A stretch of 64,000 nucleotides of DNA from Candidatus Pantoea bituminis. GTDB lineage: Bacteria > Pseudomonadota > Gammaproteobacteria > Enterobacterales > Enterobacteriaceae. Each line of letters begins with the position of its first letter. The first letter of the stretch is position 1. This document shows, piece by piece, positions 23,207 to 45,087 of the stretch. The translations under genes were made by a program, and so were the position numbers. The stretch is taken from contig NZ_JAGTWO010000005.1 of assembly GCF_018842675.1 (NCBI RefSeq), forward strand, positions 310,001 through 374,000, given 5' to 3'. The notes under the pieces are model-generated. The model was not told the origin of the DNA and ran no database searches. It worked only from the letters and a program-made list of their open reading frames with translations.

Positions 23207-23781
23207 TCAAGCAGACAATGCGCTGCAACTGGCGTTAGCCCATAGCTCAATACCTTGACGAACCCTGTATTCAACTTTTTGTTTAATCTCTTTCTGTTTT
23301 GCCTGGAACGCTCGCGGCTGTAGGAACTGCGGGTCAAAGATAAAACAGTGACCTTCCCAGCAGAGAATAGACCGGTCTGAAACAGTGTGAGGCAACAGAA
23401 GGCTTTGACGTTTTGTTGTTTGCCCAGCGCCGTTATCAGGATCAACGAAGCGGGATTGCGGATAAATTCGCCAGGCTTCGTAAGGCTCATCTGGCACCGG
23501 TAACAGGAATGTCAGCGGAAAAAAGTTGAGGAGAGTTCAAGACCGATAATCTTCAAAGAGATATTGAAGCTCACGCTTTTGCGCGATGGGTTAAGGCTCG
23601 GCAAGACATCACACAGAATATGGAAGCGACCTTGCTGGGTCAGCCAGGTATTTACATAGCGTTCCATTAAATGCCACTGAAGATCTCGCTGCGAGACGCC
23701 TTCGATTCGGGCGATAAGTTTGAAATGCCGAATCAGTGCATCACTGGCAGTCTCGATTTCTGTCGCGCAGGACTTATTCAT
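23207..23781 (-). CDS. Hypothetical protein, about 191 residues (frameshifted as read)
   Basis: I do not recognise this protein. Two open stretches join when one base is added to the A run 23519-23524 (T on the coding strand), giving a continuous protein. The N-terminal third is helical and charged (IETASDALIRHFKLIARIEG, then QWHLMERYVNTWL); the rest is rich in aromatics and prolines (PDEPYEAWRIYPQSRF, GHCFIFDPQFLQPRAFQ). No signal peptide or membrane segment is evident. The start at 23781 has TAGGAGTG eight bases ahead, good evidence that it is a real gene. It lies 97 bases behind the Gfo/Idh gene at 23878 on the same strand and could be transcribed with that operon. Confidence 0.6.
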
Positions 23782-23877
23782 ATCGCTCACTCCTAAAGCC
23801 ACACGAAGGTGAAGTAATGTGAGGAGTTATAAAATTGCCTCCTTAAACAACAGGAGGCAGGTTTATACGGGCAACGT

Positions 23878-24999
23878 TTACAAAATCATCCAGCGCTTTT
23901 CTCTGGATGAGGCTACAGCGGCATCAATCACTTTCTGAATTTCCCACGCCTCACGGAAATCGGGCCCGGCAACGGGCTGACCTGCAACGGCACGCAGAAA
24001 CTCAGCGATCTCGATGGTTTTAAGATCGTTAAAGCCGAGTTGGTGTCCGGGAGCAGGGCAGAATGCCGCGTAAGGGGCATGTTTTGGCCCAGCTTCGATT
24101 CGTTGAAAACCATGATGACCGCTATTGCCTTCTGAACGGTAAAAATGCAACTCGTTAAAGCGCTCCTGAGTGAAATGCAATGCACCCCGCGTGCCGTAAA
24201 TTTCGAAACCCAGCTGCATATTGCGGCCGGTTGCCACCCAACTCGCTTCAATACTGCCTTTACAACCCCGTGCAAATTCAACCGTCAGGCGAGCAATGTC
24301 ATCCACTTCGACCGCACGCTTTTCCGCTGCACCGGATGACGTTGGGCGGCTTTTAATGACGGTTTCCAGGTCAGCATTGACGGCGACGATCGGCCCCAGC
24401 AGGAAGCGTGCCATTGAGACAATATGGCTACCGAGATCCGCCACCGCGCCTGCTCCACCAGAAGGATCAAGGCGCCACGACCAAGGCGTAAGCGGTGATG
24501 CCATAAAATCTTCTGCATGAATGCCGCGAAAACTAACAATATCGCCCAGCTCACCTTGCTCAATCATCTCTTTCGCCAATTTGAGCATGGGGTTTTTCAG
24601 ATAATTGAAACCGACCTGAGTAACGACACCTTTTGCTTCCGCCGCTTCCGTCATGATTGCCGCATCCTGACTGCCCGGCGCTATCGGCTTCTCGCAATGC
24701 ACGTGTTTTCCGGCTTTGATAGCGGCCAGCGCCTGTTCAAGATGAAAACGATTGGGTGTTGTGATGGAGACAACATCGATATCAGGATCGTTAATCAATG
24801 TGTGCCAGTCATCGGTATGGCGACGAAAGCCAAAACGCTGAGCCGCTTTCTCTGCCGCAGCACCCTCAATATCCGCCACGCAAATCAACTCCGGTGAGAC
24901 TTCACCGGGGAAGATGCCCGCAGCTGCCCGGTAGGCAAGCGCGTGCGAAAGCCCCATAAATCCGGTTCCGATAATCCCTACGCCTATCTTTTTCATCAT
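23878..24999 (-). CDS. Gfo/Idh/MocA family oxidoreductase
   Basis: A 373-residue NAD(P)-dependent sugar or cyclitol dehydrogenase. It has the dinucleotide fold (GVGIIGTGFMGLSHA), the EKP motif (HCEKPIAPG) and the DxxxH catalytic segment (VADLGSHIVSMARFL). The long length and GFNYLKNPMLKLAKE place it with myo-inositol 2-dehydrogenase-like and related dehydrogenases whose substrates are mostly unknown. Last of the five metabolic genes of the minus operon, 21 bases behind the IolG-like gene. It may oxidise a stereoisomer or derivative not used by that enzyme. Confidence 0.9.
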   Translation of the reverse strand: MMKKIGVGIIGTGFMGLSHALAYRAAAGIFPGEVSPELICVADIEGAAAEKAAQRFGFRRHTDDWHTLINDPDIDVVSITTPNRFHLEQALAAIKAGKHVHCEKPIAPGSQDAAIMTEAAEAKGVVTQVGFNYLKNPMLKLAKEMIEQGELGDIVSFRGIHAEDFMASPLTPWSWRLDPSGGAGAVADLGSHIVSMARFLLGPIVAVNADLETVIKSRPTSSGAAEKRAVEVDDIARLTVEFARGCKGSIEASWVATGRNMQLGFEIYGTRGALHFTQERFNELHFYRSEGNSGHHGFQRIEAGPKHAPYAAFCPAPGHQLGFNDLKTIEIAEFLRAVAGQPVAGPDFREAWEIQKVIDAAVASSREKRWMIL

Positions 25000-25020
25000 G
25001 TTTCTCGCAGTTCGCTCTTT

Positions 25021-26016
25021 TTACACTTCGACTTTTACAGGCTTACCGCTTTCCACTGAGCGCTGAGCGCATTCAGCCAGTTTAAGTGCCATATAACCGT
25101 CGAAAGGCGTAATCGGAACGGCTTTTGGCTGACCGATCATATTGACGAATGCATCCATCTCTTTTCGGTAAGCATCGGCGTAACGCTCCAGGAAAAAATG
25201 CACCAAAGGTGAACGAGAATCGGTGGCATTTTGGTTGTAACGACGAACAGTAGAAGGGCGCAGGTTATCGTTCATCAACATGCCTGCTGATCCATATGCC
25301 TCGATACGCTGGTCATGGCCGTAAACGGCCTGGCGACTACAGTTGATATGACACTGTTTGCCAGAGCGGGTCGTCATCTGCACCATCACCGTGTCGTAAT
25401 CATTGAGCGCTTCCAGCGCAGGTTCCAACATGCGGCTGGCGGAGGCATACACTTCAATCGGCTCTTCGCCCAATAACCAGCGCGCCATATCGAAATCGTG
25501 AATGGTCATGTCGCGAAAAATACCGCCAGAGTGACGCAAATAATCCATTGAGGCGAAGCCGGGATCGCGGCTTGAAATCATAATTTGATGCAGTTCACCA
25601 ATTTCACCGTTGGCGATGGCTTGATGAATTTCGCTGGCGCTGGGATCAAAACGGCGATTAAACGCAATCATCACTGTCGCATCGAGATTTTTGAGTTCCT
25701 CACACGCAATCTTGGCCCGTTCTAAATTCAGATCGACCGGCTTTTCGCACAGCACGGCTTTCCCTTTTCGGGCAGCGCTCAGCATTAAATCAACGTGAGT
25801 ATCGGTCGGCGTCGCGATAACAATGCCATCAATGGAATCATCTTCGATTAACTCCATCGGATCTTTAACCGCTTTTCCGCCATATATTTCGGTTAATTTA
25901 ATGGCGTTCTCAATAAAAGGATCGGCAATGGCAACTAACTCGACTTTTGAATGTGCAGCGACATTCGACGCATGGACATTCCCGATGCGACCTGCACCTA
26001 ATACGGCAATTTTCAT
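25021..26016 (-). CDS. iolG: Inositol 2-dehydrogenase (IolG-like)
   Basis: A 331-residue Gfo/Idh/MocA enzyme close to bacterial myo-inositol 2-dehydrogenases. Motifs are the Rossmann segment AVLGAGRIGNVHA, the EKP lysine (VLCEKPVDLNLE), MIAFNRRFDPS and the catalytic pair in RDMTIHDFDMARWLLGE. The family oxidises an inositol to an inosose with NAD+, giving the substrate of IolE. The presence of iolE and iolD on the other side of the regulator supports this. Substrate could equally be scyllo- or chiro-inositol or a derivative. Confidence 0.87.
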   Translation of the reverse strand: MKIAVLGAGRIGNVHASNVAAHSKVELVAIADPFIENAIKLTEIYGGKAVKDPMELIEDDSIDGIVIATPTDTHVDLMLSAARKGKAVLCEKPVDLNLERAKIACEELKNLDATVMIAFNRRFDPSASEIHQAIANGEIGELHQIMISSRDPGFASMDYLRHSGGIFRDMTIHDFDMARWLLGEEPIEVYASASRMLEPALEALNDYDTVMVQMTTRSGKQCHINCSRQAVYGHDQRIEAYGSAGMLMNDNLRPSTVRRYNQNATDSRSPLVHFFLERYADAYRKEMDAFVNMIGQPKAVPITPFDGYMALKLAECAQRSVESGKPVKVEV

Positions 26017-26064
26017 AATATTATTTCCTGTAAGGTCAGTGATGTTCAGACTAATTAAAAGGAC

Positions 26065-27044
26065 TTAAACAATGCCGGCTTTATTTATTTCTCGATGATT
26101 GACAATTAAATTCTCTTCGAGCGTTCCGTTGAAGTAATTAATTATATTATTTACCGCAGAGACGGACATCCGCATTGCCGCTTCCTGTGTCAACCCAGCA
26201 GAGTGCGGACTCAGCAATAAGCGATAAGAAGCATGTAATAAAGGTGAGGAGGATGGAGGCGGTTCCTCACTAAATACATCCAGTCCGGCTCCCCCAAACG
26301 TTCATTGTTCAACGCTTCAATCAGAGCGGCTTCATCGACAATTCCGCCGCGTGCGGTATTAATGACAATGGCGCTCGGCTTCAACAATGCCAGTTCTTTT
26401 CGGCCTATCAGCGGCTTGGTGTCGCTCAGCGGTAAATGCACCGTAACGGCATCGGCGATTTTAAGACCTTCTTCAATTTGTTCTATTTGCTGTACACCCG
26501 AATCAGTAAATAGATCAGCAGGAATAAAGGGATCGTAAGCCACTACCTTCATATTGAAGCAGCGTGCCATTCGAGCAACTTCACGTCCGATACGGCCAAA
26601 ACCAAGAATAAAAAGCGTGCGACCCGCTAACTCAATGGCTGAAAAACTGTTTCTGCAATTCCACTGCCCTGACCGCATATTCTCATCGTATACGCGCAGC
26701 TGTTTCGCCAGGGTCATCAGCATTGAAAGAGTGTGCTCTGCCACGGAAAGTGAATTGACGTCACCGACAATCGTCAGCGGAATCGACCTTTCATTCAGCG
26801 CGGGCAGATCAACCGCGTCATATCCGACGCCGTGCCGTGAAACGATTTTCAGTTTTGCAGCCTGCGCGATCTCTTTGCTGGTCAACGGTTGCGTACGCAG
26901 CAGCAAGGCATCAGCGTTCTGAATAAAAGGGGCATAGCTGGAGACGCTGACTTCATGAACCAAGTCAAAGGTAAAACCTGGCGCATTTTTCAGAATAGCG
27001 AGTCCGGCATCGTGAATTTTTCCGGCTACAAGGACATGGGGCAT
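26065..27044 (-). CDS. D-2-hydroxyacid dehydrogenase (frameshifted as read)
   Basis: About 326 residues after correction. Visible are KIVSRHGVGYDAVD, the NAD-binding GRTLFILGFGRIGREVAR, active-site Arg in INTARGGIVDE and, after the break, Glu in the DVFSEEP segment and His in SPHSAGLTQEA. One base added to the C run 26291-26295 (G on the coding strand) restores the C-terminus, which runs to the stop at 26065 and not to the early stop at 26211. It starts 1 base after the HpaI aldolase stop codon. It differs from the similar enzyme at 5148 and probably reduces or oxidises an aldolase-derived keto acid. Confidence 0.87.
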
Positions 27045-27045
27045 T

Positions 27046-27864
27046 TTAATAACCTCCCTTTTGGGCGGGAATCTCTTTCTCAGACTGCTGGCCGGTCAAC
27101 TGGCGAAAGCGACTGACGCTGGCCGCTGCGGCACCGCGTAACAGCTGAACATCATTGGATACCGTTACCAGATCAAATCCCCATTCCACCGCTTTGGCTG
27201 CATATTCCGGCGTGCCGTTATGCAGGCCTGCACGAATACCCGCAGCATGGGCGCGTTCAATGATGTGCCTGATGCAGTCAACGATCTCCGGCTCATCGCG
27301 ATCAAAACCGGTACGGTATTTCCTGCCAGTCATCCCCAGCGTGAGATCTGCCGGGCCGATGTAGATACCATCAAGGCCGGGAGTCGCGACAATCTCATCG
27401 ATATTCTTGACGGCTTCTGCCGTTTCAATCATGGCGAAGCAGAGAATTTCGTTATCAGCATGCTGACCATAATCCTGACCCGCAGAGAAGGTGACGCGGG
27501 TAGGGCCGAAACTGCGGCTGCCAAGTGGCGGGTAACGTACACAGGAAACCAGTTGCCGTGCTTCTTCGGCATTATTCACCATCGGACAAATGATGCCGTA
27601 CGCACCGGCATCCAGCGCTTTCATGATGTCACCTGGCGAAAGCCACGGCACCCGCACCATCGGTGTCACACCGCTTGCACGCATGGCCTGTAACATGGTG
27701 GCGGCGGTTTCATAACCAACAAAGCCATGCTGAATATCGATGGTGACAGCGTCATAACCTTGCGCCGACATGATTTCAGCCGTGAAAGGGCTGGCGATAG
27801 AAAGCCAGCCATTAAGCGCTGGCGACCCGCGTTCCCATAATCGTTTAACGTTATTGTTGATCAT
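27046..27864 (-). CDS. HpaI/HpcH-family class II aldolase
   Basis: A 272-residue divalent-metal aldolase of the family that includes HpaI, GarL and RhmA, which cleave 2-keto-3-deoxy acids to pyruvate and an aldehyde. Motifs: NGWLSIASPFTAEIM, YDAVTIDIQHGF (metal-site region and catalytic His), MVRVPW, GAYGIICPMVNN, CFAMIETAEAVKNIDEI (metal-ligand Glu) and YIGPADLTLGMT (Asp). The start at 27864 has AAGGAAT ahead. In this cluster it could cleave the late keto acid of cyclitol breakdown without prior phosphorylation, in place of the IolC-IolJ steps, which is inference. Confidence 0.9.
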   Translation of the reverse strand: MINNNVKRLWERGSPALNGWLSIASPFTAEIMSAQGYDAVTIDIQHGFVGYETAATMLQAMRASGVTPMVRVPWLSPGDIMKALDAGAYGIICPMVNNAEEARQLVSCVRYPPLGSRSFGPTRVTFSAGQDYGQHADNEILCFAMIETAEAVKNIDEIVATPGLDGIYIGPADLTLGMTGRKYRTGFDRDEPEIVDCIRHIIERAHAAGIRAGLHNGTPEYAAKAVEWGFDLVTVSNDVQLLRGAAAASVSRFRQLTGQQSEKEIPAQKGGY

Positions 27865-27874
27865 CGCGTATTCC

Positions 27875-29307
27875 TTACAGCACAACTTGAGTCAGTTTGA
27901 CGTTCATGTATTCGAGGATCCCCTCGCTCCCACCTTCACTTCCCATACCGCTGGCTTTGATTCCGCCAAAAGGCACTTCTGCCGCCGCGAGCGCGAAACT
28001 GTTGATGCCGACCATACCAGCCTGAAGGGCGGCAGAAACGCGGCGGATCCGTGCTGCATCGCGGGTGAATGCGTAAGCAGATAAAGCGAACTCGGAGCGA
28101 TTAACACGCTCAATGACCTCGCTTTCATCACTGAAGGTTGTAATAGCGGCGATGGGACCAAAATTCTCTTCGCACAACGCCAGCGCATCATCTGGAACAT
28201 CAGCAATAACCGTGGGTGCGAAATAAAAACCGGGTTTATCTTGAATACGCTGACCGCCAGTAACGATACGGCCACCTTTTTGGCGCGCGTCCTCAACGAT
28301 TTTTTCAATCGCTTCCAGTCTGCGTGTGTTGATTAACGGCCCCATTTCAGTGCCTTCGTCTTGTCCATAACCCACTTTTATGTTGGCTGCGCGACGGGCA
28401 AACCCTTCAATAAAGGCAGCTGAAACTGATTCCTGAACATAAAAACGGTCTGGCGTCACACAAACCTGCCCGCAGTTGGCAAACTTGGTCGGCACGGCCA
28501 GATCCAGTGCTTTTTCGATATCAGCATCGTCAAAAACAATCATGGGTGCGTTGCCGCCAAGCTCCATGCTCAGACGTTTGATGGTGGCTGCTGAATCCCG
28601 AATCATTTGCTGTCCAATCGCAGTGGAGCCGGTCAGCGTGACTTTCTTCACCGCTGCCGAATTAATCAGGGGTTTATAAGTCTGTTCAGTACCGCCAACC
28701 ACCATATTCACTACGCCAGCGGGAAGGCCCGCTTTCTGCAGACATTCCATAATGATCATCGCAGAACCGGGAACCTCGCTTGAGGGGCGCAACACGACGC
28801 AGCAACCCGCAGCTAACGCGGGTGCCACTTTGCGGGCAATCAGGACAACGGGAAAATTCCACGCAGTAAAAGCGGCAACCACGCCAACCGGTTCATGGGA
28901 AACTTCACAACGACCCCTGCCACACGGCTTTCAACGATGCGACCATAAATGCGGCGGGACTCTTCGGCATACCAGGTAAACTGGTCGATGGATAAGGTCC
29001 ACTCACGACTGGCCTGGCCCAGCGGCTTGCCGCTTTCCCGTGAGATCATTGTTGCGGCGCGCTCGCGGGCTTTTTCCATCTCCTGAGCCACGCGATGTAA
29101 CGTTTCAGCGCGCTCCCATGCTGGCGTCTGTTTCCAGAGCGAAAAAGCCTGTTCAGCGCTGGCAATGGCATCAAGCGTATCCTGTTCTGATGCTGAGGTG
29201 ATTTCGCCTAGCTTCTCATCGCGGCCTGGGTCGGTCACCACGATTGGGTAGCCGCCGCGGCCTTCACGCCAGCGACCATTAATGAATTGTCCAAACTCTT
29301 TGTACAT
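27875..29307 (-). CDS. NAD(P)-dependent aldehyde dehydrogenase, succinate-semialdehyde type (frameshifted as read)
   Basis: About 477 residues after correction. It has the family landmarks WNFPVVLIARKVAPALAAGC, ELGGNAPMIVFDDAD (general-base Glu) and NCGQVCVTPDRFYV (catalytic Cys). The closest functional classes are succinate-semialdehyde and 2-oxoglutarate-semialdehyde dehydrogenases. The frame breaks near 28903-28906, where one base (A or G on the coding strand) restores GVVVKVSHEPVGVVAAF. The true start is at 29307 (MYKEFGQFINGRW). First gene of the minus operon; its promoter region carries the 14-bp repeats assigned to the RpiR regulator. Confidence 0.88.
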
Positions 29308-29424
29308 ACCCGCTTCCTGTCTTTTCTGAGGTCCGTTTTCTCCAGACCGATGAAATGTACACCTCGAAATCGAAGCCCCGTTCAGCGTTACAGCTAACAA
29401 TCTAGTTGCAATGATTAGATCGCT

Positions 29425-29438
29425 GCAATAAAAATTGC
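29425..29438. promoter_or_regulatory. Probable RpiR operator 1, GCAAT-N4-ATTGC
   Basis: A perfect inverted repeat, 118 bases before the aldehyde dehydrogenase start. It is one of four 14-bp repeats of form GCAAY-N4-RTTGC within 1.4 kb, all flanking the RpiR gene. Confidence 0.65.
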
Positions 29439-29646: not shown

Positions 29647-29766
29647 TATAACTTGATGTGGTGAGCGGGCAGAAGTGTCAACTGAGCAGGACATACATTT
29701 ACTGAGAAAGCACCCTGATTCTCAGTTTAAAATGACTTTTTGATTGAGTATTGAGGGCACGTTGTC

Positions 29767-30701
29767 ATGGCTAGTCGTAAAGATGCAGAAAAAACTGCAG
29801 CGGCCACCGCACAAAAATTATGAACAAGTGGTAAACGATATCACTGAGCGATATCCCCATTTGTCAGAGCGTTTTCAACAGGTGGCGCGTTTTATTATGC
29901 AGAATCCAAATGCCGTTGCGCTGGAATCGATTAATGCGATAGCCCAAAAATGCGGCCTGCACCCCTCTACGCTCGTGCGATTTGCTCAAAATCTGGGGTA
30001 CAGCGGATTCAAGCAGATGCAGTCAGTATTTCAAACGCGTCTGGCAACATCTGCACCTGGCTACAACGAGCGTATTGTTGCACTTGAAAATGATTTAGAA
30101 AAAACCAGCAGCAGGGAAGTTTAGGATTTCTGCACAGTCTGGTCGTTAGAGATATCGCGACGCTTCAGGGCATGCTGGAAAGCATCAAGGCAGCTGACTT
30201 AGATCAAAGCGCGGTCTATCTGAAAAACGCCGAAACCATCTTTATTGCGGGTCAGCTCCGTTCCGAACCCGTTGCGATGTTGATGCGTTATCTGCTGACC
30301 ATGCTTAACCGCAAAGTGGTATTACTGGATATGCCGGGCGGGCTTGCTCCTCATATGGCCATGAACATGACAGCAAACGATGCGTTAATTGCCGTTTCGT
30401 TTCGCCACTATGCGCAAGAAGTGATGAATATTGCTGACATTGCTGAGAAAAAGGCATACCCGTGATCGCTATTACCGACAGCGTGCTATCACCGTTAGCC
30501 AAAAATGCCTCGGTACTTTTCACCATTCCAGAGGAAGAGTACAGCTTCTCCCGTTCGCTGGCCGCGCCGGTGTGTTTAGTTCAGTGCATCGCACTCGCAG
30601 TGGCTTCGGCGATGCACCCGGAAGAAGAGCAGCCAAGGATTGAAACGGTCACTGAGCGTACTTTACGGGTAGAAGAATTTAAAAAGACGCCAGCAAAATA
30701 G
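29767..30701 (+). CDS. RpiR/MurR-family transcriptional regulator (frameshifted as read)
   Basis: About 311 residues after correction. It has the N-terminal HTH_6 domain (QVARFIMQNPNAVALESINA, then CGLHPSTLVRFAQNLGYSGFKQMQ) and the C-terminal SIS sugar-phosphate-binding domain (AETIFIAGQLRSEPVAMLMRYL, VIAITDSVLSPLAKNA). Two clear breaks, at A runs 30099-30104 and 30448-30452, are each cured by one base. At the 5' end the ATG at 29767 (GAGGG upstream) needs one more correction near 29789-29817; without it an ATG at 29783 could serve. RpiR proteins commonly govern inositol genes. It lies between the two catabolic operons, surrounded by matching repeats. Confidence 0.85.
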
Positions 30702-30725
30702 TTCCCTGATTACCGGCCCGAACCC

Positions 30726-30846: not shown

Positions 30847-32691
30847 ATGTCGACGTATCGTTGCACCACTGCACAGGCCATTGTGCGCTATCTCAGTAAC
30901 CAGTTTACCGAGATTGATGATCAGGAAGTCCCGCTGTTTCCTGGTGTGTTTGGCATTTTTGGTCATGGCAACGTGACCTGCATGGGGAAGCCCTTGAAAG
31001 TGTTCAGGATGTGCTGCCAACGTGGCGCGGCCAGAATGAACAGTCAATGGGATTCGCCGCGGCGGGGTTTGCCAAAGCGCGCCTGCGCCAGCAGATTATG
31101 GTGGTTACAGCGTCAATCGGGCCGGGAACGACGAATCTATTGACAGCTGCAGGCGTGGCACATGTAAGCCGGTTGCCTTTTTTAATGCTCTGCGGTGATA
31201 CCTTTGCTCAACGCCATCCCGATCCGGTTATGCAACAGGTTGAACATTTTAACGATCCAACGCATACCGTTAACGATGCGTTTAAAGCTGTAACGCGTTA
31301 TTGGGACCGTATAACCTGGCCGGAGCAGATCGTCTCTTCGCTGCCGCAGGCAGTTGCAACCATGCTGGATCCTGGCGAGTGCGGGCCTGCTTTTATCGGT
31401 CTTTGTCAGGATGTTCAGGAGATGGCGTGGGATTTTCCCGAAGCCTTCTTCCAGCGCCGTGTTCACCACATTCCACGTCCACGCCCGGACAATCAGTTGC
31501 TGAATAAAGCGGTTGCACTGCTGCAACAAGCCAAAAATCCGCTGATTATTTCTGGCGGCGGCGTCCGTTACTCGCGAGCGGAAGCGGCATTAGAAAAACT
31601 CGCTAAAGAACGCGGCATTCCCGTGGTTGAAACCATCGCGGGTAAAGGCGCTTTCACTCACGATCATCCGGTACATGCCGGCCCGATTGGCATCCTGGGT
31701 TCAACATCCGCTAATGCGCTGGCAGCAAAAGCAGATGTGATTATCGCCGTCGGCACTCGCTTGATGGATTTTGTGACCGGCTCATGGTCAGTCTTTTCAC
31801 ATGAAGCAAAATTTATTGCTATCAACGCAGCACGCTTTGATGCCAACAAACATTTTGCCATTCCGTTGGTATGCGATGCGCGAGAAGGTTTGTCTGAACT
31901 CGATCAAGCATTAGGCAGCTATCAGGCCGATCCCGCGTGGCTTCCACAAGGAAAGGCATGGTTCAGCGAGTGGAATCATCTGATTGCAGAAAAACAAGAG
32001 CGGGCCATCACCCCTGACGGCGTTCCAACTTATGCGCAGGTGGTTGGCGTGGTAAATGCCAGTGCAGCGAAAGAGGATTATGTCATCAGCGCAGCGGGGG
32101 CTGCCAGGTGAGTTAGTCAAAGGGTGGAAAGTAAAAACGCCCGGTACCTTTGATTGCGAGTTTGGCTTCTCCTGCATGGGATACGAGATTTCCGCCGGCT
32201 GGGGTGCCGCCATGATTGAAGAAGAGCGAGATGTTTTCGTCATGATCGGGGATGGCACCTACATGATGATGAACTCCGATGTCTATTCAACGGTGCTCTC
32301 CGGTCACAAGATGATTCTGCTGGTGTGCGATAACGGCGGCTATGCGGTCATTAACCGACTGCAAAATGCCAAAGGCGGCGCGTCATTCAACAATCTACTT
32401 AAAGATTGCAAAGTAAAAGAACCGTTCCACGTCGATTTCGTCGCGCATGCGCAGTCGATGGGCGCACTGGCACGTAAAGTCAGCAACCTTGATGAGCTGG
32501 AAACCGCCATTGGATGGGCTAAATCCAACGATCGCACCACAGTTATCTGCATTGACACTCATCCGCATGAATGGACACCAGGCGATGCCTGGTGGGATGT
32601 TGGCGTACCCGAAGTCAGCGCCCGGGAGAGTGTGATGGAAGCAAGACGGGAGCAAGAAGAAGCCCGCAAAAAACAGCGGATTGGTATTTAA
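30847..32691 (+). CDS. iolD: IolD, 3D-(3,5/4)-trihydroxycyclohexane-1,2-dione acylhydrolase (frameshifted as read)
   Basis: A thiamine-diphosphate enzyme of about 615 residues after correction, the normal IolD length. It opens the ring of the diketone made by IolE to give 5-deoxyglucuronate. N-terminal GVFGIFGHGNV, QNEQSMGFAAAGFAKA (catalytic Glu region) and ASIGPGTTN precede the central domain. The TDP-binding motif is GDGTYMMMNSDVYSTV with DNGGYAVINRLQ downstream. Breaks are at the G run 30984-30987 (one base missing) and the G run 32096-32100 (two bases missing, restoring AAGGLPGEL). First gene of the plus operon, preceded by operator 30757. Confidence 0.92.
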
Positions 32692-36154: not shown

Positions 36155-36168
36155 AATTGGGAGTGGTT

Positions 36169-37221: not shown

Positions 37222-37231
37222 GGAGAGTGTC

Positions 37232-38404
37232 ATGAATAAACAGCCATTGAAAGGTCGCCGCATCCGGCTCGGCATGGTGGGCGGCGGTGAAGGCGCTTAT
37301 ATCGGCGGTATTCATCGATTCGCTGCCCGAATGGATAATCAATATGAATTAGTGGCTGGCGCATTTGATGTGGATCCTGGGCGTGGGCATGCTTTTGCTG
37401 CACAGAATTTTGTCGCAGCAGAGCGCTCTTATAAGGATTATCAGACGATGATTGCCGCTGAAAGCACGCGCGAAGATGGCGTGGACATCATCGCCATCTG
37501 CACGCCTAATTTTACCCACTATCCTATCGCCCGCGCCTGTCTTGACGCTGGCATTGATGTGATCTGTGAAAAACCGCTGACCACCACGCTTGATGATGCA
37601 GAGGCTCTGGCTGAAGTCGTGCAGCGTACCGGAAGATTTTTAGGGGTAACGTATACATATTCCGGTTATCCCATGGTGATGGAAGCCCGGATCAAAATCG
37701 AAGCAGGACTGATTGGCAAAGTCCGCACGGTACAGGTTGAATATCCATTGGAATGGATGGCGACAGGCATTGAGCTTAAAAACAATCAACAAGCGGCATG
37801 GCGTGTTGACCCTAAGAAGAATGGGCGGGGCGGTTCAATCGGAGACATTGGCACGCATGCTTATCACTTGGCCAGCTATGTCACTGGCCTGCAGGCCGAA
37901 AGCGTACTGGCCGATCTCGCTACCTTCGTTGAAGGCCGGGCATTGGATGATAACGCACACGTCCTGATCCGTTATGAAGGCGGCGCAAGGGGCATGCTTT
38001 GGTCATCACAAGTCGCTATCGGCTGCTCTAACGCTTTACGCTTGCGCGTTTTTGGTGAAACAGGCAGTTTGATGTGGTTTCAGGAGCAGCCTAACGAGTT
38101 GCTTTATACCTCGCTGGAGGGCGATAGCCAGGTTATCAAACGTGGCCGGGATACGCTCCACGACTTGACGAAAGCACGCACTCGTACGCCGCCCGGTCAT
38201 CCCGAAGGCTACATTGAGGCCTTTTCAAATCTCTACCAAGGCTTCGCGACAATTCTTCGGCTGCGCGATGAAAAGCGCAATCTCACAGAGAATACCCACG
38301 TAATACCGCAAATTTATGATGGATTAAAAGGCGTGGCTTTCGTCGATGCCGTTGTGGACAGCCATGAACAGGGTTCGGTCTGGATGAAACCTAAATACGT
38401 GTAG
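37232..38404 (+). CDS. Gfo/Idh/MocA family oxidoreductase
   Basis: A 390-residue member with RLGMVGGGEGAYIGGIHR (dinucleotide fold), the CEKPLTTTLDDAEALAE lysine motif, GVTYTYSGYPMV and the catalytic GDIGTHAYHLASYVTG. The GEGAYIG start and length fit the subgroup usually found beside a TIM-barrel isomerase, whose substrates are oxidised sugars or cyclitols. The start at 37232 has GGGAGAG ahead. It is distinct from the two Gfo/Idh genes at 23878 and 25021, so the island has three such enzymes. Confidence 0.9.
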   Translation: MNKQPLKGRRIRLGMVGGGEGAYIGGIHRFAARMDNQYELVAGAFDVDPGRGHAFAAQNFVAAERSYKDYQTMIAAESTREDGVDIIAICTPNFTHYPIARACLDAGIDVICEKPLTTTLDDAEALAEVVQRTGRFLGVTYTYSGYPMVMEARIKIEAGLIGKVRTVQVEYPLEWMATGIELKNNQQAAWRVDPKKNGRGGSIGDIGTHAYHLASYVTGLQAESVLADLATFVEGRALDDNAHVLIRYEGGARGMLWSSQVAIGCSNALRLRVFGETGSLMWFQEQPNELLYTSLEGDSQVIKRGRDTLHDLTKARTRTPPGHPEGYIEAFSNLYQGFATILRLRDEKRNLTENTHVIPQIYDGLKGVAFVDAVVDSHEQGSVWMKPKYV

Positions 38405-38596
38405 CACCACAAGAGAGCACATTTGCGTGGCGATCCGTTTTGACATGAAGCAGGGCAGCGATCACATGAGGGTTTTGTGAGGTTTTTTTGAGGTTCTGTT
38501 AACGCAATGTAACTGCTAACCTGGAAAGGAATTCTTCTGCTTTAGAATGGCATGAGGCAGAAAACGTACCCTACAACAGTCAAAAATGAGGTTGCT

Positions 38597-39742
38597 ATGA
38601 CATCTCAATATTTCGTAAATGAAGATCAGGTTTCAGTTGAAGATTTCAGTTCTTTTTGTGCCCAACATGTCGACCGCGCCGACTATCCGCTGGCCAGCGA
38701 AGTCACCTCTGATGTATTGATTTACGATCGGCATGTGCTTGACGAGATTGCAGCAACAGACAAAAAGCGGGTGCTGAGTGAGTTACACAAGGCGCTTTCC
38801 TATGGGCCTGGCGTTTTTGTGGTGCGGGGGCTTTATAGCGATACTGAAATCATTGACAGCGCCTCTCAGGTTTTTGAAGAGATTATGCACGAGGAAGCTA
38901 AGTCCAAGGTACAGGCTGACCACTTTTCAAAAGCTGGCAACAATGGTCGCATCTGGAATGCTCTGCAAAAACTGGCTGAAGCTAATCCACACGTGTTCAC
39001 GAATTACTATGCCAATACCACGCTGGGTTTGATCTGCCAGGCGTGGTTAGGGCCAGCCTGGCGCATGACTTCGCAGGTTAATCAGGTTCGTCCTGGTGGC
39101 GAAGCGCAACAGGCGCACCGTGATTATCATTTGGGTTTTCAACAAAGCGCCTTTGCCGCTGAATTTCCTGTTCCCGCGCAAATTCTTTCGCAATATTTGA
39201 CGCTGCAGGGCGCCGTCGCCCATACGGACATGCCACTCGAATCAGGCCCAACGCGATTATTGCCGTGGTCGCATCAGTATGAACTGGGCTATATCGCTTA
39301 CCGTCGCCCAGAGTTTGTCGATTTCTTTAATGAAAATTATGTCCAGCTGCCGCTGCGCAAAGGGGATGGATTATTCTTTAACCCGGCGCTGTTCCATGCC
39401 GCAGGCAATAATTCGACGCACGATGTCGTACGAACGGCGAACTTGCTGCAAATCTCATCGGCGTTTGGCGTTCCCATGGAGGAAGTCAATCATGAGCAGA
39501 TCCTTAAAGTGATTTATCCCTCACTCAAAGGCAGCACGCTTTCGGAAGAAACGCGCAATGCCGTGATTGCCGTTGCGGCGCGCGGCTATTCTTTCCCAAC
39601 TAATCTGGATACCGATCCGCCGGTAGGTGGATTGGTGCCAAAAACGCAACAGCAGCTCTTGCTGCAAGCGCTGCAGGATAACCTGAGCGCGGAGCAATTT
39701 AACCGCGAATTAGACCAGCACACCGCCAGACGAAAGGCGTAA
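38597..39742 (+). CDS. Phytanoyl-CoA dioxygenase (PhyH) family Fe(II)/2-oxoglutarate oxygenase
   Basis: A 381-residue protein of the PhyH superfamily. The iron ligands are visible as HRDYH (HxD) and the distal His in NPALFHAAGNN; the following STHDVVRTANLLQ contains the 2-oxoglutarate-binding Arg. VNQVRPGGEAQQ leads into the HxD. Such enzymes hydroxylate or oxidatively demethylate varied small molecules. It lies 192 bases after the Gfo/Idh gene, with GAGG seven bases before the ATG at 38597. In this context it might remove an O- or N-methyl group from a cyclitol, but that is a hypothesis. Confidence 0.87.
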   Translation: MTSQYFVNEDQVSVEDFSSFCAQHVDRADYPLASEVTSDVLIYDRHVLDEIAATDKKRVLSELHKALSYGPGVFVVRGLYSDTEIIDSASQVFEEIMHEEAKSKVQADHFSKAGNNGRIWNALQKLAEANPHVFTNYYANTTLGLICQAWLGPAWRMTSQVNQVRPGGEAQQAHRDYHLGFQQSAFAAEFPVPAQILSQYLTLQGAVAHTDMPLESGPTRLLPWSHQYELGYIAYRRPEFVDFFNENYVQLPLRKGDGLFFNPALFHAAGNNSTHDVVRTANLLQISSAFGVPMEEVNHEQILKVIYPSLKGSTLSEETRNAVIAVAARGYSFPTNLDTDPPVGGLVPKTQQQLLLQALQDNLSAEQFNRELDQHTARRKA

Positions 39743-39803: not shown

Positions 39804-41138
39804 TTATTTTAACGTTGGTACCGTGAGTTTCTCTTTTGCCGCCGTTTGTTTACGCATTGCCGCCACGTCTGCTGCCGTCACTTCCGTTCCCTGATTACCC
39901 CATGACGTACGAACATAGGTGAGAATGTCGGCCATCTGTTGATCATTCATCTTCCAGTCGAAAGAGGGCATTCCGGCTGCGGTAGGTCGGTCTGCGGTGT
40001 TGGCAGCTCGTGCACCGTTTAACAGGGAATTTATCATGTTAGTCGGATTATTGAGCATTGATCTATTACCCGCAAACGCCGGTACCATGCCGCTGATCCC
40101 TTCGCCCTGCACACCATGGCAAGCGGTACAGTTCACTTCAAAGCTCAGCTCTGCGTTCTTCTTACGTGTTTCATCCATCACAAAAGCCTTCGGGGCTGGC
40201 GTGTCGGATGCAGGAAGGCTTCTGAGATAAGCGGTGACGGCCTGTAAATCGCTGTCGCGGAAATATTGCATGGAGTGTTCAACCGCTTCGGCCATTGGCC
40301 CGGCTGCGACGCTCTTGCCATCTGATCCCGTCTTCAGGTATTCAGCGATCTCTTTATTGCTCCAGCTACCGATACCGCTATGTGCATTAGGGGTAATGTC
40401 GGGTGCGTACCAATCTCCGAGCGCCCCACCTTGTAAATATTTACTGCTGATTTCCCCGCCCAGCGCATTGCGCGCCGTGTGACAAACGCTACAGTGCGCT
40501 GGCCCATCAACTAAATATTTTCCACGATTAATCAGGTCCAATTGATCGCTGCTTGACGCTGTTTTAAGGCTTTCAGGCTTGAAACCGCTGTTATCAAAAA
40601 ACAGCAGGTTCCAGCCCGCCATCGCCAGACGAATGTTGTACGGGAAATTCATCCCACCATTTTCATCAATCTTATGGTTTACCGGTTTGAGTGTTGAGAC
40701 ATAGGCCCAGAGATCATGCATGTCCTGATCGTTTAATTTGGCGTATGCGGTATAGGGCATGGCAGGATAGAGGAAACCCTTATCGCCACGGCCGAGACGT
40801 ACAGCATTGAAAAAGTCGCGCTCGGTCATGTTGCCGATACCGGTCTCGCGGTCTGGCGTGATATTCGAGGTTTTAAGCTCCCCGAACGGCGTATTAATTT
40901 TGTATCCGCCCGCAAAACTTTGCTCATGACAGGCTGCGCAATCGCTAAGACGCATGACGTATTCGCCGCGCTTAATGGCCTCTGCATCTGAACTGCGATA
41001 GTCAGCCAACACGGTTTTATTATCAGCAACATCAGAGCGTGAGCTGTCCATCACCAGCCATAATTTGCCGAACACCCCGATCCCCGCCAGAACGGCCAGC
41101 GCCGCCAGACTGTATCCTATTTTCTTTTTTGTACTCAT
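39804..41138 (-). CDS. Tri-haem cytochrome c subunit, gluconate 2-dehydrogenase type
   Basis: A 444-residue periplasmic cytochrome with an uncleaved N-terminal anchor (GYSLAALAVLAGIGVFGKLWLV) and three haem sites: CAACH, CSVCH and CTACH. It has the usual segments GELKTSNITPDRETGIGNM and YAPDITPNAHSGIGSWS. It should pass electrons from the GMC flavoprotein to ubiquinone. Its anchor is N-terminal, while that of the paralogue at 9772 is C-terminal. It follows the flavoprotein gene by 2 bases. Confidence 0.93.
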   Translation of the reverse strand: MSTKKKIGYSLAALAVLAGIGVFGKLWLVMDSSRSDVADNKTVLADYRSSDAEAIKRGEYVMRLSDCAACHEQSFAGGYKINTPFGELKTSNITPDRETGIGNMTERDFFNAVRLGRGDKGFLYPAMPYTAYAKLNDQDMHDLWAYVSTLKPVNHKIDENGGMNFPYNIRLAMAGWNLLFFDNSGFKPESLKTASSSDQLDLINRGKYLVDGPAHCSVCHTARNALGGEISSKYLQGGALGDWYAPDITPNAHSGIGSWSNKEIAEYLKTGSDGKSVAAGPMAEAVEHSMQYFRDSDLQAVTAYLRSLPASDTPAPKAFVMDETRKKNAELSFEVNCTACHGVQGEGISGMVPAFAGNRSMLNNPTNMINSLLNGARAANTADRPTAAGMPSFDWKMNDQQMADILTYVRTSWGNQGTEVTAADVAAMRKQTAAKEKLTVPTLK

Positions 41139-41140
41139 GA

Positions 41141-42909
41141 TTATGCTTTCACCAAGGGAGCAGGATTTTTGATGTACATCTGATGGATGGCCTGAGCAGC
41201 ACGAACAGCCAGCGCGCCCACGGTAATGGTCGGGTTATAGCCGCCGTTATTAGGAAAAGCTGATGCACCAACGACAAACACGTTATGGACATCCCAGCTT
41301 TGCAAGTAAGTATTTACTGCTGAGGTATGGGGATCTGCGCCCATTACCGCGCCGCCAATGGTGTGTGAACTCTCTTGTAAGTAGGGATTCCAGCTGCTGT
41401 CTGTCTGGCGTTCAAAGATGGTGGTGGTGGGGCCCGCTTCCTTCATGATGCTTTTGGCTTTTTCGGTAACGTAGTTCACCATTTTGATATCGTTACTGTT
41501 CCAGTCGAAGGTCACGCGCAGCAGCGGTCGACCATGACGGTCTTTATAGACAGGATCGAGATCGAGGTAAGCGCCGCGCACCGGCATTGATGTGCCCTGA
41601 CAAAACACGGTGGCAGCGGTCTGATAGTCACGTGCATAGCCTGCTTTCCACTCACTTCCCCAGCGTTTTGTTCCTTCACGCAGACTGTTCATATGCTGGA
41701 TAGGGCGGCCATCAGTGTTATAGGCCATGATCCCGGCACCACCGATGAAATCGAGGTGACTGTGATCAAAATTGTCGCCATTGAAGTCATCGATTTGTAC
41801 CGCTAACGCACCACCCCCGATAAAGGGATTCATAAACTCACCATCAAAGAAACCGGTGACTGAGGAACAGCTTTGATAGTTGTAGTTGCGTCCGATCGTA
41901 CCGCGACCGGTTTCTGGGCTATACGGCTCACCAATTTGCGACAGCAGCAACATGCGCACATTGTCCATTTGGTAGGCAGTGATACAGACCACATCGGCAG
42001 GCTGAAAACCTTCAACACCCTCTTTGGTGATGAAGCGAACGCCTTTGGCTGTTTTTCCATCCTCATGTTTGATGACCTGCAACACTTCGGTTTCAGTCAA
42101 CACGCTAAAGTTTGGACGACGCATTAATACCGGAAGAATACAGGCTTGAGGAGAAGATTTACTGAAGTTGCCACAACCGTGGAAATCACAAAAACCGCAG
42201 TACGTGCAGGGGCCCATGGTGACACCCAGTGGATTAACATAGGATTGGGACAGGTTGCCAGCCGGAATGGTGAAAGGGTGATAGCCCATACCTGCTGTGG
42301 TGGTGCGGTACTTTCTCAACCAGTGCGTATCTTTGAGGGGGGCGTTGGATAGTCGCGGCTGCGTGATCCCTCAAAGATATTGCCATTTGGCTGCGGCTGA
42401 CCATTTAGATTACCTGCAATGCCGGAAGTGCCAGCAATGCGCTCAAAGCGATCGTAATAAGGTTCCATTTCAGCATATGTCACACCCCAGTCTTGCAGCT
42501 GCAAGTCCTTCATTTTGCGGGCGCCATAGCGTTCGCGGGTCTGCGTCGCAACTTCAAAATCCCAAGGCGTAAAGCGCCATGACATTCCGGCCCAGTGTGT
42601 ACCTGCACCGCCGACGTTCCAGCCAAACTGATAGGCTGACCAGTCACGAACGGGAGCGGCATCCTGCCGGCTATGGTTACGAAAAGTGGTAGTTTCAACG
42701 CTCATCGGCTGTAACAACTGACGGCGTGTATGCCAGCGAAGTTCATCAGGATCCACGGCAACCGGGAAATCGGTTGACGTATCACGCCAGGCACCGCGCT
42801 CAATCGCGACGACGTTCAGTCCGGCACGCGTTAACTCTTCTGCCATGACGGAACCCGCCCAGCCTAATCCGACAATCACGACGTCGGCTTTATTTCTTAT
42901 TTGTGACAT
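41141..42909 (-). CDS. GMC-family FAD dehydrogenase, gluconate 2-dehydrogenase-like large subunit (frameshifted as read)
   Basis: About 589 residues after correction. It has the FAD fold VVIVGLGWAGSVMAEEL, VGGAGTHWAGMSWRF, the cysteine cluster GPCTYCGFCDFHGC for an iron-sulfur centre, and the catalytic His in SSHTIGGAVMG and Asn in YNPTITVG. This organisation matches gluconate and 2-ketogluconate dehydrogenases of Erwinia, Pantoea and Gluconobacter and related glucoside 3-dehydrogenases. One base added to the G run 42337-42342 (C on the coding strand) joins the halves through PTPPLKDTHWLRKYR. The substrate is open; its place in the cyclitol island hints at an inositol or glycoside. Confidence 0.9.
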
Positions 42910-42926
42910 TTACTCTGCTCCGACAA

Positions 42927-43655
42927 TCAATCTTTTGGAATAAGGCTTACAGGAATTAACTTCAAATTTTCGCCGCGACGGTCAACATATTGGCGGTAGT
43001 CGTAACGTGCACCGGGGAAGCCAATCATCTTCCAGCCAGCCATGGTTTTGTTGCCACCGTAAAGCGGGTCAGCTAAATAACTCTCACGTACGTTTTGCAG
43101 CATTAATTCAAAGAACGCCTGGCTGTTCACCTCCTTGCCAAGATAAATTTTCCCTGCTTCCATCATGGTGAGAAAGGTATCGATTTGTTCTGCATTGAGG
43201 GTATGAAATGAAGCGTGATGATTGACCTGAGACCAGGCTTCCAACGCTTGCAGACCTGTCAAATAACGCTCTCTCGGCGTTGACAAAAACTGTGGCGAAC
43301 CCATTAATTTTTCTTCGTTTTCCGGGCGCAAAGGCCCTTGCAGATACAGCGCCGCGCCGGAACCGTAATCGCCAGCCAGCTGATCGTCTATAAACTCGAT
43401 GGCCCCTTCTTCACAGGCCGAAGGGCCATGATCGTCAGCAGGAATAAGACGATCAAAAATGGCCGTCAGGTTTTTTCTGTCTGTTTCATTGGTCAGAACC
43501 CGATAGCCGCCCGTCATTGCCGGTAACGGTACAGCATCTGAAGTTAATTGAGTTTCAAGCGGAACGTTATGCAGTTCTTTGGCACTCAGCTTTGGCGCTA
43601 ACGTTACCGTCGCCACAAGTGAACTGAGTGAAAAGAGTGCTTCTCTACGATTCAT
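42927..43655 (-). CDS. Gluconate 2-dehydrogenase subunit 3 family protein (Tat-exported small subunit)
   Basis: About 242 residues with a twin-arginine-like signal (MNRREALFSLSSLVATVTLA). Family segments include RLIPADDHGPSACEEGAIEFID, YLQGPLRPENE, FFELMLQNVRESYLADPLYGGN and MAGWKMIGFPGARYDY. The subunit is required for export and assembly of the flavoprotein, which lacks its own signal peptide. The ATG at 43655 has AAGGA eight bases upstream, better than the in-frame ATG at 43661. First gene of the small subunit-flavoprotein-cytochrome operon. Confidence 0.9.
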   Translation of the reverse strand: MNRREALFSLSSLVATVTLAPKLSAKELHNVPLETQLTSDAVPLPAMTGGYRVLTNETDRKNLTAIFDRLIPADDHGPSACEEGAIEFIDDQLAGDYGSGAALYLQGPLRPENEEKLMGSPQFLSTPRERYLTGLQALEAWSQVNHHASFHTLNAEQIDTFLTMMEAGKIYLGKEVNSQAFFELMLQNVRESYLADPLYGGNKTMAGWKMIGFPGARYDYRQYVDRRGENLKLIPVSLIPKD

Positions 43656-44065
43656 ATCCATTTCCTTAATGCTTGCCAGCACGACTTATATTCACCCAAT
43701 GAATAAGTGAACTTCCCTGAAGATTGGCAATAGAAAACCAACCCTGTTAAAAACACGGTAATCAGGCGCGTCATCATTTATTTGAGACGTCAGCGAGCGC
43801 TTTTGGGGACCAAAAGTTATTTAAACGCTTTCGTCTATTATTTTAAAAAGGGCTTAGGTTAATGCGATGATATTGAGCATGGTGATACCTCTGGTGTGTT
43901 AAATGTTAAAAATGAAAAGTAATGTTTAAATACGGATTCTTTGTTTTTTAATTTAGGTCTGAGATCATTACGTAATAATAGTCAAACCTATTTGTGCGTA
44001 ATGGGTTGCTTTGTAAACACAGCTTGCGAGTAGCGTTAGAGGCTACTGCAAGCTGGCTTGCTCTT
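43656..44065. other. Intergenic region upstream of the second dehydrogenase operon
   Basis: This AT-rich 410-base gap lies between the dehydrogenase operon and the end of the LacI gene, both on the minus strand. It holds the operon promoter, a possible LacI-type half-symmetric element AAACGCTTT near 43821 and the stem-loop at 44021-44054. No gene is convincing. Confidence 0.45.
44021..44054 (-). terminator. Stem-loop after the LacI gene
   Basis: AGCTTGC-g-AGTAGC pairs with GCTACT-GCAAGCT around a 7-base loop, a 13-bp stem with one bulge. It lies 12 bases after the LacI stop codon. It has no U tract, so the terminator role is moderate in confidence. Confidence 0.5.
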
Positions 44066-45087
44066 TTATTGCTTAAGATGAGAACGCCGGATAATGAGTT
44101 CTCCTCTTTGCCATTCACTCGCGGGTGAAGACTTATTTTCAGTCAGTCGATTGATCGCTTCCATAATCAGCGTTTCTGCGTTTTGGTGATAAGTCGTTAA
44201 CGCCCAGACAGGTGAATCGGCTTCTTCAATACCATCAAAACCGACAATAGCGATACTATGGAAATCGCCAGTTTCATAAAGCGCTTCCAATGCGCCAATA
44301 GCTAAAATGTCGTTTTCACAGAACAGGGCATCAACACGCTTATCAACGGGTGTGCTGTTTAAATAATCCACCATCATTTGATAACCGAGCTTACGCTCAT
44401 ACCCGCCAGCAATGAGCAAAACATCGACTTTACAGTTATGTGCTTCAAGTTCTGTTTGATAGCCATCCATACGAAGCAGATGACTGGATTCAGTGTCAGG
44501 CCCTTTCATATAGCCAAACCGCGTATAGTCTTGAGCAAGCAGCAATGCGGCTATTTCACGACCCGCCTGATAACCATCAACATTGACGACTTCAATTTTG
44601 CGGTGATCTTCACTGTTACGGCATATCTGCACCAACGGAACAGAGTGAAGGCTTTGAGCGATATCGAGAAGCTCATTACTCAGATCGTTTGCAACAAACA
44701 GAATGCCATCAACCTGTAGCTGATCGGCCATTTGTATCACCGATTGATAATTTTCACCGGCAGTAATATTCAGCACTAGCGCAAGATAACCTTTTGCCTG
44801 TAGCGCCTTGGTTGCCGCATTTAGCACCTGCATTGAATGAGGGTTTTTCAACTCATCTATAGCAATACCAATGATATGCGTATTTTTTTGGTCAAGCTGC
44901 GCGCCAGTAAATTAGGGCGATATCCTAACTCAGCCGCAATTTTCATCACTTTCTCTTTGGTCTCCGGCGCAACGTAGGTACCGGGTGTAAATGCTCTCGA
45001 TACTGTCCATTTTGATACACCTGCGAGTTTTGCCACTGCGCTAGCATTGGCTTTCGTTTTTTTCGGCGTTTTGGTTTCTTTTGTCAT
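44066..45087 (-). CDS. LacI-family transcriptional regulator (frameshifted as read)
   Basis: About 340 residues after correction. The N-terminal helix-turn-helix (ASAVAKLAGVSKWTVSRAF, then APETKEKVMKIAAELGYRPN) is followed by the hinge (LLARSLTKKN) and a periplasmic-binding-like sensor domain (IIGIAIDEL, DGILFVANDLSNE, GREIAALLL, CENDILAIGALEAL, VGFDGIEEADS). One base added to the T run 44883-44889 (A on the coding strand) joins the two parts. The start at 45087 fits the family, though its ribosome binding site is weak. It probably controls the dehydrogenase operon downstream and itself. Confidence 0.86.

Follow-up and report, generated by a model that had tools for sequence, protein, structure and literature searches.

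The window analysed here, a 64,000-nucleotide stretch of a five-contig, 5.22 Mb Candidatus Pantoea bituminis genome (G000:C5:310001-374000), carries a real and conserved cyclitol island, located at positions 23878-38404 with the exception of one gene for a sugar-binding protein. The island is horizontally shared and has a non-classical gene set, the core being arranged as GfoA-IolG-2HADH-HpaI-ALDH / RpiR / IolD-IolE-SDR together with a HYD-RED pair, where GfoA is a Gfo/Idh/MocA dehydrogenase, 2HADH a D-2-hydroxyacid dehydrogenase, ALDH an aldehyde dehydrogenase, SDR a short-chain dehydrogenase/reductase, HYD a hydratase homologue and RED another Gfo/Idh oxidoreductase. To judge from its gene families, this is a conserved variant of inositol catabolism with an accessory oxygenase of the PhyH family. 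The interpretation that we favour, tentatively and with some reserve, is that the island provides a side route from 5-deoxyglucuronate, with PhyH preparing a modified inositol.

Gene content and conservation of the island

Recognised genes extend from position 23878 to about 45189 of the window, and no gene start was found at position 23207. A reading made beforehand from the letters alone (the sequence-only reading) had described a single large island at 23207..45087; its gene inventory largely stands, but its boundaries and context do not, as the stretch is a mosaic of the cyclitol island and pieces of a second Pantoea cluster (Table 1). Profile matches were scored in bits against the curated cut-offs of the models, and matches to PDB entries by E value. 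IolD, IolE and the IolG-like enzyme are indeed present, by their matches to TIGR04377, TIGR04379 and TIGR04380; the HpaI-type aldolase, 2HADH, ALDH, SDR and two extra Gfo/Idh enzymes were all recognised, and family matches were obtained for PhyH, the cytochrome c, the GMC flavoprotein, the gluconate 2-dehydrogenase subunit 3 and a TIM barrel. IolG is 81% identical to the copy of Pantoea At-9b, whose IolD is whole and scores 832 bits (cut-off 715). The nearest named PDB match of GfoA is the scyllo-inositol dehydrogenase 5ya8 (E=2.4e-92), which would be consistent with a cyclitol substrate, and the protein is 67% identical to the island copies of genomes G064 and G087. HpaI, ALDH and 2HADH of the window do not reach the cut-off of any model listed for them, HpaI having 160.9 bits with TIGR02311 (cut-off 368.8); the whole ALDH of At-9b (477 aa) scores 480 bits with the succinate-semialdehyde dehydrogenase (SSADH) model, under its cut-off of 646, and 2HADH is whole (330 aa) in At-9b.

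Table 1. Features of the cyclitol island and of the adjoining second cluster, in window positions.
Feature	Position	Strand	Match or remark
GfoA, Gfo/Idh/MocA dehydrogenase, scyllo-inositol / L-glucose dehydrogenase type	23878..24999	-	PDB 5ya8
IolG, inositol 2-dehydrogenase	25021..26016	-	TIGR04380 395 bits, cut-off 355
2HADH, D-2-hydroxyacid dehydrogenase	26068..27044	-	two frames, break at about 26291
HpaI-type class II aldolase	27046..27885	-	relatives begin at 27864
ALDH, SSADH-type aldehyde dehydrogenase	27875..29400	-	two frames
RpiR-type regulator of core island	29744..30701	+	three frames
IolD, trihydroxycyclohexane-dione hydrolase	30847..32691	+	three frames; TIGR04377 pieces 498 and 236 bits
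IolE, inosose dehydratase	32718..33628	+	TIGR04379 333 bits, cut-off 290; two frames, break near N-terminus
SDR (PRK06198 type), last in iolD-iolE run	33625..34434	+	NF004847 437 bits, cut-off 240
CUT2 sugar-binding protein (SBP), second cluster	35056..35979	+	77% to At-9b pPAT9B01 SBP
HYD, 2-hydroxy-3-keto-glucal hydratase homologue, accessory	36157..37221	+	PDB 8ro4 E=6.2e-158, residues 5-354
RED candidate, Gfo/Idh oxidoreductase paired with HYD	37211..38404	+	80% to G087, 81% to At-9b copy
PhyH-family Fe(II)/2-oxoglutarate oxygenase, accessory	38552..39742	+	ligands expected H189, D191, H282; 2-oxoglutarate Arg R294
Cytochrome c subunit, second cluster	39804..41138	-	PF00034; 70% to At-9b pPAT9B01
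GMC flavoprotein dehydrogenase, second cluster, two frames	41141..42909	-	PF05199/PF00732; 81-85% to At-9b pPAT9B01
Gluconate 2-dehydrogenase subunit 3-like protein, second cluster	42927..43682	-	PF13618; 75% to At-9b pPAT9B01
LacI-type regulator, second cluster, two frames	44066..45189	-	52-66% to At-9b pPAT9B01 LacI

Island-type HpaI (at least 77% identity) occurs in four of 246 family genomes, namely the source genome G000, which is counted in, and G064, G087 and G230; an automatic table in which G087 lacks HpaI was set aside after direct tblastn located the gene there. The At-9b proteins were searched by tblastn against ten related islands, absences being valid for the fetched, finite stretches. 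Three of these islands lie in the genomes G087, G064 and G230, and the others on plasmids of Pantoea At-9b (a self-comparison), Pantoea BRR-3P, Klebsiella pneumoniae, Klebsiella aerogenes and the Rhizobiaceae Shinella sumterensis, Shinella WSC3-e and Pararhizobium A13. GfoA, 2HADH, HpaI, ALDH, RpiR and IolD are each found in all ten, and the recurrence of these six genes together means that their association exceeds chance. An IolG match is likewise present in all ten, at only 30% in A13; IolE is found in nine (absent from WSC3-e) and SDR in eight (absent from G064 and WSC3-e). Six of the islands (G064, G087, G230, BRR-3P and the two on Klebsiella plasmids) share the gene order GfoA-IolG-2HADH-HpaI-ALDH / RpiR / IolD-IolE; iolG is relocated in the At-9b island, and the Rhizobiaceae islands are rearranged. 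A close CUT2 permease is encoded in six of the ten (G087, G064, G230, both Klebsiella and A13), with weak matches in the two Shinella stretches and none in the window or in the At-9b and BRR-3P stretches. The K. aerogenes core is flanked by a CoA-acylating methylmalonate-semialdehyde dehydrogenase (MMSDH; 695 bits, cut-off 448.5) and ppsA, and the K. pneumoniae core by homologues of MMSDH (in two frames) and ppsA.

In the window, SDR is followed at 34376-34774 by a gene for a 132-aa protein without a Pfam match, and a small hypothetical protein likewise follows SDR in the At-9b and BRR-3P islands.

A candidate side route and its alternatives

As the sequence-only reading had stated, iolB and iolC are missing from the window, where IolB and IolC-DUF2090 of the same organism have no tblastn match (E<=1e-5); nor have they one, at the same threshold, in 14 related-island stretches (L125-L127, L152-L159 and L161-L163, of which L159, L162 and L163 are flanks). 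No IolJ is named in the annotated islands, for which the gene tables are incomplete and no IolJ query was run. The organism, by comparison, does possess the classical genes: locus L099 of contig C4 comprises iolA (three pieces), iolB, a gene for an RpiR regulator, a second iolE, iolG and iolD, the last in two pieces, and an iolC-DUF2090 fusion. DUF2090 has been proposed as the missing aldolase (PMC9007349). The idea that iolB, iolC and an aldolase are lacking in the organism is ruled out by these genes, and the genome-wide search suggested with the earlier reading has thus turned up the complete classical set elsewhere that it had named as one half of the evidence against itself.

The scheme that we favour goes beyond the established family assignments and synteny: its reactions, in so far as they exceed the family names, and the substrate of PhyH are what we infer. 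IolG and GfoA would oxidise inositols to inososes, IolE would dehydrate these and IolD would open the ring to give 5-deoxyglucuronate, as expected of their families. From here, IolB isomerisation, IolC phosphorylation and IolJ cleavage would be replaced: ALDH would oxidise the C1 aldehyde of 5-deoxyglucuronate to yield 5-deoxyglucarate, 2HADH (or SDR) would oxidise C2 to give, by atom accounting, a 2-keto acid that carries hydroxyl groups on C3 and C4, and HpaI would split the C3-C4 bond to produce hydroxypyruvate (C1-C3) and malonate semialdehyde (C4-C6), the latter passing to acetyl-CoA through a CoA-acylating dehydrogenase (IolA/MmsA). If dehydration came first, pyruvate would replace hydroxypyruvate. 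PhyH would convert a modified (O-methyl, deoxy or conjugated) inositol to free inositol for IolG, IolE and IolD, and HYD and RED would form an accessory 3-keto-glucoside module for inositol glycosides or other glucosides. The GMC/cytochrome complex is a neighbour from another cluster. A phosphorylation-free route through HpaI, which had been suggested before, seems plausible, but the 2-keto-3-deoxy acid then assumed as its substrate is not necessary, a 3-hydroxy-2-keto acid fitting by atom accounting. No report of 5-deoxyglucarate or HpaI in inositol breakdown was found among the papers listed from the open PMC literature, and none there of a hydroxypyruvate aldolase.

The window aldolase is 65-75% identical to seven island copies, and its nearest PDB match is the hydroxyketoacid aldolase SwHKA (E=2e-61), with 4b5s of the HpaI fold family also matching (E=9e-39). 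SwHKA accepts pyruvate and hydroxypyruvate (PMC10099721), and its His44 and R69 align with the island protein. In addition, the MMSDH genes beside the Klebsiella cores fit malonate semialdehyde as a product.

A number of observations weigh against this scheme. IolB scores over its cut-off in all four family genomes with island-type HpaI (G000, G064, G087 and G230), so that the classical enzymes could take over the IolD product while ALDH, HpaI and 2HADH serve something else. In the aldolase, the SwHKA residue that contacts hydroxypyruvate, F210, is replaced by a His that is invariant in eight aligned island copies. HpaI homologues at 65-68% overlap or adjoin mandelate-racemase-type genes on Mesorhizobium and Agrobacterium plasmids, which suggests cleavage of a 2-keto-3-deoxy acid and formation of pyruvate, and ppsA beside the Klebsiella core agrees with this. 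MMSDH was not found near the core in the window or in the stretches of the other eight islands, and our confidence was lowered slightly because such neighbours occur in two islands of ten. PhyH is present in six of the ten islands, the G064, G230, K. pneumoniae and K. aerogenes stretches being without it, and the copy of G087 (L125:7079-8272), which lies beside an otherwise whole island, has Gln at the position of H189 and may be inactive. Our genome scan found 260 stretches that encode a PhyH relative, of which the best 80 were used for locus counts, and island HpaI at 38% identity or more was found at none of the 80. Finally, 2HADH, ALDH, RpiR, IolD and IolE of the window are split into two or three frames each.

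The presence of classical IolB in all four genomes and the mandelate racemase-type neighbours of the 65-68% HpaI relatives both favour an alternative in which chromosomal IolB, IolC-DUF2090 and IolA finish the 5-deoxyglucuronate made by the island, and ALDH, 2HADH and HpaI serve a separate acid, for instance a sugar acid or one formed from another cyclitol isomer. This explanation, a serious one that we nevertheless find doubtful, has to account for the fact that ALDH, HpaI and 2HADH accompany GfoA and IolD in all ten islands, in Gammaproteobacteria as well as Alphaproteobacteria, and that MMSDH stands beside both Klebsiella copies.

According to a second alternative, the oxidised IolD product is dehydrated to 4-hydroxy-2-oxoadipate, which HpaI cleaves to pyruvate and malonate semialdehyde, in analogy to the HpaI reaction on the homologous heptanedioate. 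The ppsA neighbours in both Klebsiella plasmids, the membership of the aldolase in the HpaI fold family (4b5s) and a homologue beside a mandelate racemase/MLE gene in Mesorhizobium are consistent with this variant. It is unlikely, however, in that no enolase-superfamily dehydratase is found among the annotated core genes and 2HADH is left without an obvious step, except for reducing a product. The Mesorhizobium locus (L160, on a plasmid of Mesorhizobium loti NZP2037) encodes the HpaI homologue, about 65% identical to the island enzymes, together with a mandelate racemase-type protein and an alpha/beta hydrolase in one run of genes, which adjoins those of an amino-acid-type ABC transporter, and appears from its gene content to be a different pathway that uses the same aldolase subfamily.

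Accessory and neighbouring genes

The protein that had been taken for a Fe(II)/2-oxoglutarate dioxygenase bears this out, with the HxD...H triad and the 2-oxoglutarate Arg in place. In an alignment of 26 PhyH sequences, D191, H282 and R294 are invariant and H189 is conserved in 25, and in a second set of 30 sequences without the G087 protein all four residues are invariant. The AlphaFold model (mean pLDDT 85) has the typical Fe(II)/2-oxoglutarate oxygenase fold, and a fold search returned natural-product dioxygenases, the lowest-ranked being EvdO1 and the kanamycin dioxygenase KanJ, a result that indicates no substrate. PhyH is encoded in four of the 246 family genomes (G000 counted in, one match being weak, G230 giving none) and in 48 of 72,556 plasmid records; its nearest relatives among the scanned genome contigs are those of Pantoea rodasii, Erwinia sp. 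S63 and Pantoea sp. alder81 (77-79%).

The PhyH gene appears, from its neighbourhoods, to be linked to inositol genes. iolD, iolE or iolG lies within about 10 kb of PhyH at 18 of the 80 loci, and at 15 of the 60 that are at least 20 kb long, as scored at 40% identity or more over half of the query among loci that are phylogenetically non-independent and without a random-locus baseline. The genes are arranged as lacI / iolG-iolE-phyH at L070, as iolD-iolE-phyH at L061 and as lacI-phyH-SDR-MFS at L055; an SDR adjoins PhyH at L065 and in G068 too, and all three of these are homologues of the island SDR. A LacI-type gene of one sequence cluster occurs at 54 of the 80 loci; 53 of these were measurable, and in 48 the gene lies directly divergent from PhyH. 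Among plasmids, PhyH lies within 13 kb of HpaI in seven of the best 15 of 757 HpaI records, two of the seven being Shinella plasmids of identical length, in a comparison that rests on 40 of the 48 PhyH records. To our knowledge, an oxygenase of the PhyH kind has never been assigned to cyclitol breakdown. That PhyH might remove methyl groups, as the sequence-only reading had suggested, is for the present a guess. No report of pinitol or inositol catabolism with a phytanoyl-CoA dioxygenase was found in the open PMC literature, and none of a bacterial inositol demethylase among the papers listed there on pinitol and rhizobia.

Seven PhyH loci of Trinickia, Burkholderia and Paraburkholderia (L028, L036, L037, L052, L063, L067 and L090) all contain an intradiol ring-cleavage dioxygenase and an AP_endonuc_2 TIM barrel, and at L028, L036, L052, L063 and L067 an IolG at 56-57% is also present.

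The TIM barrel of the island, previously read as an unplaced isomerase, is a homologue of 3-keto-glucal hydratase. This HYD protein is 85% identical to the At-9b island copy and occurs in seven of the ten related islands; as the other three (G230, K. aerogenes and WSC3-e) are without it, HYD is regarded as an accessory module. G230 has no close HYD in its whole genome (best E 2.5e-8), and no gene labelled IolD, IolE or IolG was found at 20 further family loci around HYD. The nearest PDB entries of RED are unnamed oxidoreductases such as 3v5n. In Agrobacterium (PMC10628242), GlycDH, the eliminase AtOGE, AtHYD and a Gfo oxidoreductase dismantle glucosides without hydrolysis, the evidence given there for the hydratase role of AtHYD being preliminary. 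This A. tumefaciens system (PMC10628242), the match of HYD to 8ro4 and its recurrence among the related islands raise the possibility of a glycoside island, in which HYD, RED and a C3-oxidising dehydrogenase free inositol by beta-elimination from galactinol or other inositol glycosides, PhyH acts on the aglycone and the iol genes degrade it. Such an arrangement is rather improbable given the three stretches that lack HYD and the GMC, cytochrome and subunit-3 proteins, which are found in none of the ten related islands; no beta-eliminase was recognised in the island either, although none was searched for by sequence.

A second HYD locus of the same genome (L129, G000:C5:184001-202000) holds a GH3 glycosidase, encoded in two overlapping frames, as well as MFS-type transporters and a LacI-type regulator with 71-72% identity to the PhyH-divergent LacI of Pantoea and G087; no iol gene is labelled there.

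The GMC, cytochrome c and subunit-3 genes stand beside HYD-RED, yet match a different cluster, which lies on a separate plasmid from the island in At-9b, and on the same plasmid as the island but far from it in BRR-3P. Their matches on pPAT9B01, together with the 40% identity of the window SBP to island SBPs, assign the periplasmic complex to the neighbouring cluster; the genes of the gluconate-dehydrogenase-like complex had thus been correctly recognised, but its membership of the island is rejected. No usable report on a glycoside 3-dehydrogenase, whether with a Gfo enzyme and 3-keto sugars or with gluconate 2-dehydrogenase subunit 3, came up in the open PMC literature. The nearest PDB entry of the SBP is 4yo7, a structure solved with myo-inositol, which agrees with a cyclitol substrate, though the SBP belongs to the second cluster. 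A further membrane-dehydrogenase set, consisting of a FAD-SLDH small subunit, a GMC flavoprotein and a cytochrome c, is located at 7500-11163 of the window.

Splits were detected where whole relatives match in two or three frames, the N-terminal part of ALDH being matched separately, and also affect the GMC and LacI genes of the second cluster (two frames each). They are probably assembly errors at homopolymers, which are likelier than decay. All nine break zones hold a homopolymer of at least 4, and four of the five narrow zones hold one of at least 5, compared with 11-14% of random 27- to 33-base windows, a background comparable with the five narrow zones and not with the four wide ones. Splits also occur in the classical iolD and iolA of contig C4. 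Of 13 At-9b island proteins, 12 matched the window at over 45% identity (the SBP did not), and seven of these genes are whole. Open reading frames of at least 200 aa account for 73% of the window sequence, for 70% of that of L099 and for 85% of that of L129, all from G000, and for 41-96% of 30 stretches of other genomes, 27 of them at 74-88%. That the island is decaying and non-functional, as its five split genes and missing CUT2 permease match might suggest, is very unlikely on this evidence, and was judged slightly less probable again because the permease is absent from the Pantoea At-9b and BRR-3P stretches too; a pseudogene island was rejected as the principal explanation on the homopolymer analysis of the break zones.

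Elsewhere in the window, the gene product of 3234-4427 contains the PF03022 (major royal jelly protein) domain, and LamB/YcsF and carboxyltransferase-domain genes, a set of the 5-oxoprolinase type, lie at 57677-60159.

Comparison with known systems

Plants are rich in inositols and in inositol O-methyl ethers. In its widest form, the proposed side route would amount to a complete second, phosphorylation-free inositol pathway on a mobile island shared by Enterobacterales and Rhizobiaceae, its aldolase being a new enzyme of the HpaI type and its linked oxygenase opening methylated, deoxy- or conjugated plant inositols in the role of the moc oxygenases; this we consider possible, with somewhat more doubt than the side route itself. 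The PhyH family in that reading often stands beside a divergent LacI-type regulator of its own. If true, a movable route that skips the kinase and brings an aldolase and a regulator of its own would explain why bacteria already equipped with iol keep a second set, an HpaI subfamily and the PhyH family, with its 260 relatives in the genome scan, would gain a function, and PhyH would be a candidate demethylase or hydroxylase for pinitol-type compounds.

Like the non-hydrolytic 3-keto-glucoside pathway of Agrobacterium, the island encodes HYD, which aligns along its entire length with a solved hydratase, and, after it, a Gfo/Idh enzyme; in contrast to that pathway, the island HYD is tied to inositol genes, and the GMC complex nearby comes from another cluster. 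GfoA is homologous to the scyllo-inositol / L-glucose dehydrogenase of Paracoccus laeviglucosivorans, but scores 337 bits with the levoglucosan-dehydrogenase model, under the cut-off of 650. The island aldolase shares full-length homology with the class II pyruvate aldolases SwHKA, HpaI and GarL and aligns with the SwHKA residues His44 and R69, whereas it falls under both the HpaI and the GarL cut-offs and differs in having His in place of SwHKA F210.

The island resembles the rhizopine (moc) clusters in its MocA-type Gfo/Idh enzymes and in the proposed release of an inositol by an oxygenase. Demethylation in moc clusters is carried out by a Rieske-type enzyme; the island oxygenase, in contrast, is of the PhyH-family Fe(II)/2-oxoglutarate type, with no Rieske family among the island proteins scanned, and the rhizopine SBP model reaches 19.8 bits (cut-off 420). 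The sources consulted describe one main inositol route, with IolC and either IolJ or DUF2090. Compared with this classical system (IolG-IolE-IolD-IolB-IolC-IolJ/DUF2090-IolA), the island has the same IolG, IolE, IolD and RpiR-type regulator, and malonate semialdehyde, the classical end product, is also the one proposed here, but in place of IolB and IolC-DUF2090 the island contains ALDH, 2HADH and an HpaI-type aldolase.

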